From Ferrimonas marina (lineage in GTDB: Bacteria; Pseudomonadota; Gammaproteobacteria; Enterobacterales; Shewanellaceae), in contig NZ_FQXG01000009.1 of NCBI RefSeq assembly GCF_900129905.1, positions 1 to 64,000 on the forward strand: DNA of 64,000 nucleotides, given 5' to 3'. Within the stretch, counting starts at the first letter, position 1. The number at the start of each line of letters is the position of its first letter. The position numbers and the translations under genes were made by a program. Of the stretch, positions 1-46,140 are shown piece by piece. Below the pieces are notes generated by a model. It saw nothing but the letters and a program-made list of their open reading frames with translations, had not been told where the DNA came from and made no database searches.

Positions 1-48
1 GGCCTGTCACGCCGGGGGTCGCGGGTTCGAGTCCCGTCCACTCCGCCA
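1..48 (+). tRNA. tRNA-Asp(GTC), 3' part, cut by window start
   Basis: These 48 bases are identical to the last 48 bases of the three complete tRNA-Asp genes at 44835, 44988 and 45173. They hold the anticodon GTC (6-8), the T-arm GTTCGAGTC and an encoded CCA. The first 29 bases lie outside the window. A terminator follows 12 bases later, so this is the last gene of its transcript. Confidence 0.95.
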
Positions 49-60
49 TCTATAAGTCAA

Positions 61-90
61 AAAGGCTCTGTCGAAAGACAGAGCCTTTTT
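61..90 (+). terminator. Rho-independent terminator of tRNA-Asp
   Basis: The stem AGGCTCTGTC / GACAGAGCCT is followed by a T run. The same terminator occurs after the third tRNA-Asp at 45261 and, with one loop change, at 881. Confidence 0.9.
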
Positions 91-417
91 GCATTTCTGG
101 AGTTCGAAGAGTGGACGGTTCTTAGGAGTTTGATAGTTCTGCACTAACAACACTTCCATGTGAGATCCCTCCTGTCGCCATCCTTGGCTCCACCTGAGCG
201 AACTGCGAAGCTGCGCTTCGGTTTCGCTTCGCCCCTGGTGCACCCCTCCGCTCGGCGTCCTGCCTCGCGCTCAAGCGCTGCGTTGCTGATGAGGTTCGCA
301 CTTGGTGTATTACCAACATCACCTCCATGTGGCGGTGCCCTGTCGGCGTCCTGCCTCCACCTCAGCGAACTGCGAAGCTGCGCTTCGGTTCCGCTTCGCC
401 CGCCATTATTTGCATAA

Positions 418-447
418 AGCCTGAGTCGGAAGACTCAGGTTTTTTTG
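418..447 (+). terminator. Rho-independent terminator inside hairpin array 1
   Basis: The stem CCTGAGTC / GACTCAGG with a GGAA loop is followed by seven T. It closes the first repeat unit shortly after its tRNA-like CGCCCGCCAT end. Confidence 0.85.
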
Positions 448-880
448 CGTTTAAAGACTATTGAGTTGGAGTGGACGGTTCAGTGGTTCGTGTTGGTTTG
501 GCACCAGCAACGCGATGGAGCTCACTGCCACCTCTTGAAGTATCAACCCCTCCCTGGTGTTTCCCTCCTGTCGGCTTCCATGCCTCCACCTCACCAAGCT
601 GCAAAGCTTCGCTTTGGTCTTGGTTCGGCCATGGCAGCCGCTTCGGGCCTGCGTTGCTGATGAGGTTCGCACTTGGTGTATTACCAACAACACCTCCATG
701 TGGCGGTGCCCTGTCGGCTTTTCATACGGCCATCCATGGCCTCCTTCAAAGTCCGGCTGCGACTCCTGTCTCCGCGTTCGAGCACTGCGTCGCTTCGCGA
801 CGGTCGCTCTCACCCTGCCTCCACCTCAGCGAACTGCGAAGCTGCGCTTCGGTTCCGCTTCGCCCGCCATCTATGAGTCA

Positions 881-910
881 AAAGGCTCTGTCGCAAGACA
901 GAGCCTTTTT
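881..910 (+). terminator. Rho-independent terminator inside hairpin array 1
   Basis: This is a near copy of the tRNA-Asp terminator at 61-90, with CGCAAG in place of CGAAAG in the loop. It closes the second repeat unit. Confidence 0.85.
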
Positions 911-1171
911 GCATTTCTGGAGTTCGAAGAGTGGACGGTTCTTAGGAGTTTGATAGTTCTGCACTAACAACACTTCCATGTGAGCTCCCTCCTGTCGCCA
1001 TCCTTGGCTCCACCTCGCCAGCTTGCGATGCTGCAGGTTGGTTCGGCTTTGTTTGATGATGGAAGATCAGCGTTCTCTTGATCTTGCCCATGGGGGAGGG
1101 GGAATTAGGCTTTACTGGGTTGGTTATCTGCTTCAAGGTGAAGTTAGGTCAATGGTGCTTTAGGAGGTTTC

Positions 1172-5923: not shown

Positions 5924-6277
5924 ATGGCCCTATCTCAATGCGATCAATGCCGCAGCGCCCTTCAACCCACCCTGATGGTCTGTCCGCAATGCGGCGCCGG
6001 GCAAGGGCTGGATGCCTTGGCGGGTGTCGAGCCCAAACTGTCCCTGCGTAGTCAGCGTCGCGCCAGCCGCCTGGGGATCTACCTGGGCACCTTTGGCGTG
6101 CACCAATTCTACCTGGGGAACCGTGCCCGGGGAGCGCTGTACCTGGCGCTGTGCTGGAGCCTGGTGCCTACCCTGCTGGGAGTCTGGGAGGGTCTTCGTG
6201 TGTCTCGAATGAGCCCTGAGGAGTTCTATCGTCGCTGGTGTCTGCCGCAACAGAAGGCCGCCAACATCGGGGGTTGA
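5924..6277 (+). CDS. Zinc-ribbon and TM2-domain membrane protein
   Basis: A 117-residue protein. Cys6, Cys9, Cys20 and Cys23 (CDQC...CPQC) form a short zinc ribbon. Residues from about 45 onward form a TM2 domain: two hydrophobic segments with the family hallmark LGTFGVHQFYLGN between them. TM2 proteins are small membrane proteins with no established bacterial function. The ATG follows AGAGGAATAACACC. It stands alone between two terminated operons, with a perfect palindrome upstream that may be its operator. Confidence 0.8.
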   Translation: MALSQCDQCRSALQPTLMVCPQCGAGQGLDALAGVEPKLSLRSQRRASRLGIYLGTFGVHQFYLGNRARGALYLALCWSLVPTLLGVWEGLRVSRMSPEEFYRRWCLPQQKAANIGG

Positions 6278-7655: not shown

Positions 7656-7743
7656 GTTCAGGCACTATACTTGAGCCGTGATCCCGTTCACATGCCGTGT
7701 TCAAGCATTAGGATATCTAATCTTTACCCGGTTCAGGCGCGGG

Positions 7744-7798
7744 AAAAAATTCATTATTCCGGGCCGGTGAATTGCCGTAAAGTACGCCTGAATTTTTT
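7744..7798. promoter_or_regulatory. Inverted repeat upstream of the MarC-family gene
   Basis: AAAAAATTCA at 7744-7753 is the exact reverse complement of TGAATTTTTT at 7789-7798, with 35 bases between. It lies in the presumed promoter region of the next gene. It could be paired half-operators or an RNA stem; nothing more can be said. Confidence 0.35.
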
Positions 7799-27953: not shown

Positions 27954-28050
27954 GGTCAGGTGTCCGAGTGGCTGCTCGGAGGTAAGGCCGACATAAGTCG
28001 ACACGCTGGCGTGCGACTCAGCCACGAAAATGCATAGCAATATCGTGGCC
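27954..28050 (+). other. Structured element headed by the tRNA-Ser 5' end, copy 1
   Basis: The first 21 bases equal the 5' end of tRNA-Ser(GGA), after which sequence diverges. Three hairpins follow: TCCGAG TGGCTG CTCGGA; GTCG-A-CACGC TG GCGTGCGAC; and GCCACGA...TCGTGGC with 7 pairs. A second copy is at 28933. It cannot fold as a tRNA, since anticodon and T arms are absent. It may be a relic of tRNA duplication or a small RNA processed with the tRNA. Confidence 0.6.
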
Positions 28051-28841: not shown

Positions 28842-28932
28842 CGTCCCCGTTGAGAGGCGATACCTCGAAACACCAAAGTGATGGCGACACTAAAATCGCG
28901 ACGTGATGACAACACGACAAATCAAACAAAAT

Positions 28933-29030
28933 GGTCAGGTGTCCGAGTGGCTGCTCGGAGGCAGGGCCGATAAAAGTCGACACGCTGGCGTGCGACTCAG
29001 CCACGAAAATGCTCTGCAATATCGTTGGCC
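28933..29030 (+). other. Structured element headed by the tRNA-Ser 5' end, copy 2
   Basis: Nearly the same as the element at 27954-28050. The first two stems are unchanged, while the third (GCCACGA/TCGTTGGC) carries one inserted base on its 3' side. The differences fall mostly in loops and spacers. Together with the tRNA after it, it forms a 215-base direct repeat of 27954-28168. Confidence 0.6.
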
Positions 29031-44834: not shown

Positions 44835-44911
44835 GGAGTGGTAGTTCAGTTGGTTAGAATACCGGCCTGTCACGCCGGGGGTCGCGGGTTCGAGTCCCGT
44901 CCACTCCGCCA
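44835..44911 (+). tRNA. tRNA-Asp(GTC) copy 1
   Basis: 77 bases with acceptor stem GGAGTGG/CCACTCC, anticodon GTC at 44869-44871, T-arm GTTCGAGTC and encoded CCA. It closely resembles E. coli tRNA-Asp. Confidence 0.97.
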
Positions 44912-44987: not shown

Positions 44988-45064
44988 GGAGTGGTAGTTC
45001 AGTTGGTTAGAATACCGGCCTGTCACGCCGGGGGTCGCGGGTTCGAGTCCCGTCCACTCCGCCA
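44988..45064 (+). tRNA. tRNA-Asp(GTC) copy 2
   Basis: Identical to copy 1, with anticodon GTC and encoded CCA. No terminator separates it from copies 1 and 3. Confidence 0.97.
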
Positions 45065-45172: not shown

Positions 45173-45249
45173 GGAGTGGTAGTTCAGTTGGTTAGAATAC
45201 CGGCCTGTCACGCCGGGGGTCGCGGGTTCGAGTCCCGTCCACTCCGCCA
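45173..45249 (+). tRNA. tRNA-Asp(GTC) copy 3
   Basis: Identical to copies 1 and 2 and to the partial tRNA at window position 1. It is followed by the same terminator as the partial copy. Confidence 0.97.
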
Positions 45250-45291: not shown

Positions 45292-46140
45292 GCATTCTTG
45301 GAGTTCGATGAGTGGGCGGTTCAGCGACCCGTAAGCGCTGGGCACCATCAACCCATCCATGGTGCACCCCTCCGCTCGGCGTCCTGCCTCGCGCTCAAGC
45401 GCTGCGTTGCTGCTGCGGTTCGCACTTGTTGTATTGCCAACAACACCTCCATGTGGCGGTGCCCTGTCGGCGTCCTGCCTTCACCTCAGCGAACTGCGAA
45501 GCTGCGCTTCGGTTCCGCTTCGCCCGCCATCTATAAATGACAAGGAAATGGTAGAGACGCCGCTACGGGGCACCACGCCCATAGGTTCGTTCTGCCAATT
45601 GTGCTAACGACACCTCCCTGTAGCACCCCCCAGGCTACCTTCCCTGGTAGCCGCTTCGGGCCTGCGTCGCTGCTGTGGTTCGCACTTGGTGTATTGCCAA
45701 CAACACCTCCATGTGGCGGTGCCCTGTCGGCGTCCTGCCTCCACCTCAGCGAACTGCGAAGCTGCGCTTCGGTTCCGCTTCGCCCGCCATCTATTTCGAT
45801 AAAGCCTCATCTTCGGATGAGGCTTTTTTCGTTGTTATTTAGAAATTGGAGTTGGAGTGGACGGTGCAGTGGTTCGTGCCTGGTCTACATGAACAACACG
45901 TCCTTGTGGGATCCCTCCTGTCGCCATCCCTGGCTCCACCTCAGCGAACTGCGATGCTACGCATCGGTTTCGCTTGGCCCCTGGTGAATCTCTCCTGTCG
46001 GATTCCTGCCTCCACCTCGCCAGACTGCGATACTTCCTATCGGTTCAGGCTTGCCCTGTCTCCGCGTTCGAGCACTGCGTCGCTTTGCGACGGTCGCTCT
46101 CACCCTGCCTCCACCTCGCTTAGCTGCGAAGCTCGCCATC
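45292..46140 (+). repeat. tRNA-Asp-flanking hairpin repeat array 2
   Basis: No credible gene is seen. Two-part hairpins of the same family as at 91-1050 lie at 45488-45519, 45748-45779, 45943-45974, 46019-46050 and 46070-46099, with a truncated copy near 46118. The inner stems are CGAAGC/GCTTCG in the first two, CGATGC/GCATCG in the third, CGATA/TATCG in the fourth and CGTCGC/GCGACG in the fifth, so paired changes keep the fold. Other hairpins are GGCTACC TTCCCT GGTAGCC (about 45633) and GCACCAT...ATGGTGC (about 45342). Bases 45361-45530 match 237-406 almost fully. Near 45855 GGAGTGGACGGTGCAGTGG resembles the tRNA-Asp 5' end. Confidence 0.8.
45801..45829 (+). terminator. Rho-independent terminator inside hairpin array 2
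   Basis: AAAGCCTCATC TTC GGATGAGGCTTTTTT closes the repeat unit that ends in CGCCCGCCATCTAT. Confidence 0.88.

Follow-up and report, generated by a model that had tools for sequence, protein, structure and literature searches.

A three-hairpin palindromic repeat at the ends of stable RNA genes in Ferrimonas marina and related bacteria

Background

Bulged hairpins conserved in structure are typical of the substrates of IS200/IS605-type transposases, and in integrons the attC sites are hairpins recognised by their structure, which terminate a small unit on its 3' side and have precise insertion sites. REP/BIME elements are described as palindromes tagged GTAG or CGTC (PMC3733652). The tRNA-linked repeats (TLRs) of Escherichia coli, first described in 1978, are short repeats behind tRNA or 5S genes that lie between terminators, carry a copy of the gene's 3' end as their last part and are tandem at some loci; no function was assigned to them before three were reported as CsrA- and Hfq-binding RNAs (PMC8144298). 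RrA, RrB and RrF are tRNA-linked-repeat RNAs from rRNA operons, and RrB binds CsrA (PMC8144298); the tyrT repeats also belong to the TLRs. The TwoAYGGAY RNA is predicted to bind CsrA (PMC4333381).

The locus compared here with these systems is a stretch of 64,000 nucleotides of Ferrimonas marina (contig NZ_FQXG01000009.1, positions 1 to 64,000), referred to below as the window, in which an earlier note had proposed at least ten copies of a two-part hairpin with compensatory base changes beside tRNA-Asp. The family to which these hairpins belong offers the E. coli TLRs possible counterparts in other bacteria. It brings a searchable structure model, an orientation rule, a fixed tRNA junction and a natural case of presence and absence, and the origin of tRNA-linked repeats becomes testable.

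Results and discussion

Structure of the hairpin and of the composite element

The two-part hairpin stands at all ten coordinates proposed for it (197, 364, 593, 780, 828, 45488, 45748, 45943, 46019 and 46070). Because the copies at 364, 828, 45488 and 45748 are identical over the hairpin length, the number of independent hairpins is smaller than ten; the outer stem of the copy at 46019 carries an A-A mismatch. The shape first described, with a TG, a bulge and two stems, was retained, but its register was refined by a single C-G pair between the bulged T and the TG. In the best register, the outer pairs (approximately 6 bp) are followed by the bulged T on the 3' side, one C-G pair, the TG on the 5' side, an inner stem of 6 bp and a loop of 3 nt. 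For 12 hand-trimmed copies from the F. marina genome, pairing was observed in 90.4% of the cells, compared with a mean of 66.5% after shuffling (none of 500 shuffles was as high), and it amounted to only 28-39% when the partners were slid by 1-3 columns. In the same copies, 10 of the 13 pairs showed changes on both sides, with a covariation score of 0.626 against 0.180 after shuffling. The T, the G and the bulged T are each invariant in a hand-picked alignment (39/39 rows) and are kept in 89, 94 and 92 rows, respectively, of a 99-row alignment.

Two further hairpins were found upstream of the matches to a covariance model of this hairpin (R1), which is the third (hp3) of an 84-bp repeat; a composite model of the whole three-hairpin element was named R2. 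The element consists of hp1 (nnCATCCNTGnn), hp2 (GGCATCCNTGCC), CTCCACCTC, the two-part hp3 and a terminal TCGCCC. The stems of hp1 and hp2 vary, with GCCA/TGGC, GTCA/TGAC and GCGCA/TGCGC as covariants of GGCATCCNTGCC in hp2, and the TCC loop is strongly conserved. Its three letters occur in 98, 97 and 97 of the 99 rows in hp1, where the following base is variable, and in 94, 84 (with 10 gaps) and 98 of the 99 rows in hp2; in the hand-picked alignment they are found in 37-39 of the 39 rows.

Copies in the window

All of the features described in this section lie on the forward strand. The contig start cuts a tRNA-Asp, of which the 3' part is left at 1..49 (Rfam tRNA 1-45, 28.5 bits, cut at the 5' side), and a terminator-like hairpin read in the sequence follows the tRNA end at 61..90. 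The three-hairpin element is present at 149..232 (copy 1, hp3 at 197; R2 89.7 bits, R1 64.2 bits), at 318..399 (copy 2, hp3 at 364; R2 83.4 bits), where a duplicate of the tRNA-Asp 3' end and then a terminator come next, and at 545..628 (copy 3, hp3 at 593; R2 87.8 bits), with a terminator-like hairpin of the repeat unit located at 416..443 by a scan of the array. An hp3-type hairpin of the GAGCAC kind lies at 766..813 (that of 780; R1 63.6 bits), and an element with its hp3 at 828 occupies 789..863 (R2 48.4 bits; hp3 at 815-862, R1 68.8 bits) and is followed by CGCCATCTAT and a terminator. A further terminator-like hairpin of the repeat unit was read at 881..910, and a decayed element is located at 969..1052 (R2 49.9 bits, R1 22.9 bits).

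The second array lies downstream of the last of three tRNA-Asp (GTC) genes, at 44835..44911, 44988..45064 and 45173..45249. It contains a weaker copy of the element at 45350..45430 (R2 48.1 bits) and two copies, at 45442..45523 (hp3 at 45488; R2 84.4 bits) and 45702..45783 (hp3 at 45748; R2 86.0 bits), each with the tRNA 3' end repeated behind it from position -6. The scan of the array gave a terminator-like hairpin of the repeat unit at 45801..45826. Two further elements are present at 45895..45978 (hp3 at 45943; R2 95.6 bits) and 45982..46054 (hp3 at 46019; R2 42.4 bits, R1 55.8 bits), together with an hp3-type hairpin of the GAGCAC kind at 46056..46103 (that of 46070; R1 60.2 bits).

In both arrays of the window, the Rfam gathering score was reached by tRNA only. 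The best non-tRNA match below threshold was BjrC68 at 836-916 (25.9 of 39 bits, E 0.0003), which spans an hp3 tail and a terminator.

Covariation and relatedness

Covariation was examined with a simplified R-scape-like test, in which an APC-corrected G statistic was set against a null obtained by replaying the column changes on a FastTree tree; as the copies of the element recombine, this tree is a rough guide only. The 39-row alignment (A5; A6 is A5 minus L092) was chosen by hand from 132 matches, and the list of an earlier automatic filter, which had kept 3 rows and skipped 125, served for reading alone. In this alignment, covariation at E<0.05 was found for 3 of the 21 proposed pairs and for none of the remaining pairs; the covariation score was 0.492, against 0.178 after shuffling. 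A larger alignment, built with MAFFT without structure, holds 99 distinct rows of 174 matches, after removal of those with N, with a length outside 79-90 or more than 95% alike. Here, 6 of the 21 proposed pairs covary at E<0.05, compared with 2 of 3465 others. One of the two extra pairs (columns 31-52) is Watson-Crick around hp2 in 86 of the 99 rows, and the other (columns 34-49), Watson-Crick in just 19 of the 99 rows, probably marks sub-types.

The covariation claimed for both stems was thus upheld against a tree-aware null in the 39-row and the 99-row tests, and the folded form is therefore maintained. Taken together, the element is a real, structurally conserved repeat family with regular anatomy. 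As a minor observation, columns 31-52 of the 99-row alignment form a possible extra outer pair past a two-base mismatch, and hp2 may be two-part as well.

Distribution among genomes and dispersed copies

R1 gave 21 matches at E<=1 in the F. marina genome, and those whose surroundings were read are located at 5S/tRNA-Asp ends or at contig ends carrying such sequence. With a limit of E<=0.1, 12 of the 58 sampled genomes of the family had R1 matches; 10 of these, F. marina included, belong to the genus, which is represented by 14 genomes. At E<=1e-4, R2 matched at least 26 of 394 genomes of the order (8 of 114 genera) and at least 9 of 369 genomes of the class (F. marina included), both of which are lower bounds because the filters were strict and 11-12 candidates were scored per genome. 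Matches extend to other families, and clear R2 copies occur in two Catenovulum genomes, in three Pseudoalteromonas genomes and in G337 and G231. The hp3-only matches of the f11/g15 genomes may represent a separate repeat (best R2 E 0.00285, in G161). A DNA pattern scan of named genomes was also performed; among the matches listed many look like chance, and examination was limited to loci of Catenovulum and Pseudoalteromonas and to L173, which was dropped.

The copies in Catenovulum are dispersed between protein genes, and no tRNA was found in the 1.8-kb stretches around 20 of them. Across 33 dispersed loci of Catenovulum and Pseudoalteromonas, classified with crude ORF calls, the element lies between convergent genes in 15 and between divergent genes in 6, runs with tandem genes in 5 and against them in 1, and is without a flanking ORF on at least one side in 6. 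The orthologous sites L339 and L342 both carry the element, with outer stems that differ on both sides. Two observations were made in passing at such loci. In the flanks of L323-L342, inverted pieces, for example TTTTCTAAAA/TTTTAGAAAA or TTTTTCGCAAAA/TTTTGCGAAAAA, bracket several Catenovulum elements and seem to covary. In L194, one dispersed element is seemingly split (6164-6270 and 7661-7758) by approximately 1.4 kb, probably an insertion.

Position and orientation at tRNA and 5S genes

The earlier note had placed the hairpins beside tRNA-Asp and had predicted many copies near tRNA genes. They do lie near tRNA-Asp, but the association extends to the ends of stable RNA genes generally, and the hairpin makes up a third of a longer repeat. 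The count of positions covers 41 loci, holding 95 copies, whose examined stretch includes a tRNA or 5S gene. The nearest such gene is on the hp1 side in 88 of these 95 copies, several of which sit in tandem arrays and hence are not independent. Five of the seven exceptions are in the window at 1-1052, where the contig start cuts the tRNA-Asp, and the other two (L025, L097) are near contig ends. At 62 further loci the examined stretch showed no such gene, with tRNA only searched in L324-L342. Five loci were omitted as duplicates; one of them, L367, was not represented elsewhere and would add one conforming copy. In total, 68 of the 95 copies follow the 3' end of a tRNA or 5S gene and share its strand, and 20 lie on the opposite strand at the 5' end of a tRNA; the element therefore reads outward irrespective of the direction of transcription. 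This use of both gene orientations is a poor fit to a single RNA role.

At tRNA 5' ends, the element usually starts 21-31 nt from the gene. In 18 of the 20 copies, spread over 9 of 10 loci (tRNAs for Lys, Phe, Met, Val and Arg), hp3 runs directly into a repeat of the initial 19 nt of that tRNA. At 3' ends, the gene-end copy begins at -11, -10 or -6, at a CC, in 32 of 65 copies and is absent from the other 33. Counted without two duplicate places, the gene-end copy after hp3 is a regular feature of tRNA 5' ends, and about one in two of the elements at 3' ends has it.

Tandem amplification is evident in G031, with six tandem 181-bp units, and tRNA-derived pieces and terminators recur in the arrays that were read. 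A member of the genus without an element match (G002) carries tandem units of approximately 220 bp, composed of half a tRNA-Asp and a terminator, downstream of 5S-tRNA-Asp (L287, L288); in L287 they precede murB, as named by NCBIfam. Tandem growth at such loci thus does not need the element.

Maintenance at the DNA or the RNA level

Whether the fold acts as RNA or as single-stranded DNA had been left open in the earlier note. An RNA fold accepts G-U but not A-C, and selection on the RNA of one strand should therefore leave an excess of G-U. In the 99-row alignment, the hp3 stem mismatches comprise 35 G-U and 53 A-C, and those of hp1 and hp2 without the loop-closing pair 16 G-U and 16 A-C. In a separate count of the same kind, one ambiguous hp3 pair showed a G-U excess (48 against 4 A-C) and was set aside, since shifting the bulge yields a better, Watson-Crick pairing. 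At the pair that closes the loop in hp1 and hp2, A-T or G-T is found, with 42 G-U and 1 A-C in the 99 rows; by itself, this excess would point to RNA of the TCC strand, or it would fit a loop motif of the other strand. Since the stem mismatches are otherwise without strand bias, DNA-level hairpins are the best explanation. The symmetry favours maintenance at the DNA level or the use of both strands, without amounting to proof, and leaves room for an RNA; selection at the RNA level on one strand drew no support from the stem counts of G-U and A-C, the loop-closing pair apart.

Nature of the repeat and relation to known systems

In our preferred reading, to which we give slightly less than an even chance, the hairpins are part of a composite palindromic repeat of 84 bp. 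Small cassette-like units carry it at the ends of tRNA and 5S/tRNA operons and at other intergenic sites, and it would be a selfish or structural DNA repeat of the REP/TLR kind, kept by the folding of single-stranded DNA. The element would fold as single-stranded DNA, and its hairpins would be kept for that fold. The fold might be the substrate of a putative recombination or transposition activity; alternatively, it might make the nascent strand jump back to the CC in the neighbouring gene end. Each event would duplicate the gene end, the spacer and the element, and cassettes could later be lost or moved through the flanking direct repeats. A host benefit, such as the extra terminators per unit behind tRNA/rRNA genes, would be secondary. 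This reading draws on the covariation, the strand symmetry of the stems, the outward orientation and the use of both gene orientations, the 19-nt copies at tRNA 5' ends, the tandem units of G031, the reciprocal empty sites at tRNA-Phe described below and the dispersed Catenovulum copies. The G-U excess of the loop-closing pair and of the ambiguous hp3 pair, the 3'-end elements that lack a gene-end copy and the element-free units of G002 weigh against it. A mobilising enzyme for the three-hairpin element was not found among the Y1 genes sought in the F. marina genome and in 11 genomes, and the conserved TCC loops (GGA on the complementary strand) fall outside what the DNA model explains.

As with the E. 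coli TLRs described in PMC8144298, the units are placed behind tRNA/5S genes, as for the 68 same-strand copies above, and share with them the terminators, the terminal gene-end copy and the tandem arrays. On contig C3 of the F. marina genome, an array lies between 5S-tRNA-Asp and murB (named by NCBIfam), an order that parallels rrnB-RrB-murB of E. coli. However, the E. coli repeats copy 18-19 bp of the gene 3' end, whereas the copies here start 6-11 nt before the 3' end or comprise 19 nt of the 5' end, so that a length of 19 nt was found for 5' ends only. R2 gave 13.9 bits (E 0.068, reverse orientation) on the E. coli rrnB tail and no match at E<=1 on the tyrT tail (two of ten E. coli loci), and homology of the element to the E. 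coli TLRs is suggestive only.

With REP/BIME (PMC3733652), the element shares the form of a dispersed intergenic palindrome whose stems covary and which frequently separates convergent genes (15 of the 33 dispersed loci). It differs from them in its few tags, in the lack of a flanking RAYT gene in the genomes with clear elements, in its three linked hairpins and in its tie to stable RNA gene ends. Among the 87 copies of the 99 that could be scored, GTAG was found at the hairpin foot in 3 and CGTC in 2; GTGG was found in 43, mostly on the wrong side. The element works like the E. coli TLRs and REPs but falls outside both families when tested for membership. The earlier statement that no family of this shape is described agrees with Rfam, which gave no non-tRNA match at the gathering score, but closely related kinds are known in the TLRs and REPs. 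Word-matching searches of the literature, with most subscription papers outside their reach, returned no description of the three-hairpin element.

The strongest rival to a DNA-level cassette, which we consider somewhat unlikely, is that the complementary strand, with the CA(N)GGA(U/C)G hairpins hp1' and hp2', is a CsrA/RsmA-binding RNA like RrA/RrB/RrF and TwoAYGGAY. These GGA hairpins resemble CsrA/RsmA sites. The TCC/GGA loops are strongly conserved in hp1 and hp2, and each element holds two GGA-loop hairpins on the complementary strand, several such hairpins being a feature of the CsrB clan; in addition, the A/G variation of the loop-closing position, as read on the TCC strand, corresponds to the U/C of the GGA motif. 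The E. coli rrnB T1-T2 region contains GGGCAGGACGCCC next to CGTTGCGAAGCAACG, ahead of murB, and RrB binds CsrA as noted above (PMC8144298). The GGA strand is the sense strand at tRNA 5' ends (20 copies), but it is antisense at 5S/tRNA 3' ends, i.e., in 68 of the 95 copies, including the right array of the window. Furthermore, a simple consensus scan showed no promoter-like site on the GGA strand of either window array, and the hp3 stems have no G-U excess for either strand. Rfam CsrB-clan models gave no match at E<=1 on the window arrays; the sole clan match, TwoAYGGAY (RF01731) at L356 with 59.3 bits on the GGA strand, speaks for the proposal but is a neighbour of one element, 11 nt from it. 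RF01731 belongs to clan CL00106, also the clan given for RsmY. The paired GGA-loop hairpins of TwoAYGGAY resemble those on the complementary strand of the element, but its model has 168 positions and an outer stem, and it did not match the window arrays or the elements of six other loci searched.

A more specific form of mobility appears rather unlikely to us: the unit would be a miniature mobile cassette of approximately 125 bp that inserts either 19 nt into the tRNA, where the GG of the D-loop lies, or at the 3' ends of tRNA/5S genes and leaves gene-end direct repeats, its three-hairpin single-stranded DNA fold being recognised by a putative host recombinase or HUH enzyme, and the E. coli TLRs would be fossils of such cassettes. 

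Part of the evidence for the preferred reading is a locus with the order tRNA-Phe1, Phe2, Thr, Phe3 in three Pseudoalteromonas genomes. The Phe1-Phe2 and Phe2-Thr spacings are 36 and 133 nt in G423, 160 and 8 nt in G790, and 158 and 133 nt in G789. The difference of 122-125 nt equals one cassette (spacer, element and 19-nt tRNA copy), and the empty sites are clean and reciprocal, so that precise gain or loss of one cassette is observed at this locus. The G790 Phe1 cassette shares its spacer type with the G423 Phe2 cassette. However, the pattern is no proof of transposition, because a two-cassette ancestor that underwent loss via the 19-bp repeats together with gene conversion would be an alternative source of it.

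We regard as improbable a passive history in which decayed tandem duplications of tRNA/rRNA operon ends gave rise to the arrays and template-switch correction keeps the arms without selection or mobility. The tRNA-derived pieces and terminators that recur in the arrays, the element-free arrays of G002 and the stem covariation without strand bias, as quasi-palindrome correction would give, are all consistent with such a history. It leaves unexplained, however, the conservation of the loops and of the TG/T junction (89-94 of 99 rows), and the dispersal of the element between protein genes in Catenovulum and the fixed 19-nt junction at five tRNA types argue against it.

Most improbable among the explanations weighed is a REP family moved by an IS200/IS605-type (Y1, RAYT) transposase that recognises the bulged hairpin. 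Y1 transposases were sought in the F. marina genome, in 11 genomes, and around ten Y1 loci plus L029. A hairpin of G268 (L277; R2 35.5 bits, E 4e-7) lies approximately 180 bp from a Y1 gene and a weaker one of G161 (L278; R2 20.4 bits, E 0.0018) approximately 500 bp from one, both genomes carrying the hp3-only kind of hairpin. By contrast, GTAG/CGTC tags are present in few copies, R2 elements occur without any Y1 match in G420 and G422, and in G031, G337, G231, G419, G421 and G423 no Y1 gene lies within 10 kb of an R2 match, among those listed; conversely, the Y1 loci of the genus (L029, L282) have no element match at E<=1. As the main reading, RAYT/REP was set aside on this search and on the tags, despite the hairpins of G268 and G161.

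Integron attC sites were rejected in turn, as the invariant GTT core (GTT/AAC in the R box) is missing (columns 89-91 read GT and then T in 20, C in 18 and G in 1 of 39 rows). The element resembles them in its hairpin on the 3' side of a small unit and in its precise sites, but these lie at tRNA ends rather than at attI/attC.

Several minor observations were made at the loci that were read. In L277, the hp3-like hairpin near the Y1 gene is dispersed in G268 in many near-identical copies. L029, on contig C7 of the F. marina genome, contains a Y1 transposase gene and a partial copy among GATCAATCCACTCTGACCCCTTTGGTCA repeats, which are unrelated to the element. In L359, a CRISPR repeat array (CRISPR-DR4) at 47-794 adjoins an element. 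Finally, tRNA-Ser 5' fragments of approximately 22 nt are present in the window at 27958-27980 and 28932-28954, each followed by approximately 100 nt of other sequence before full tRNA-Ser genes, which is the anatomy of the tRNA 5' ends with a different filler.
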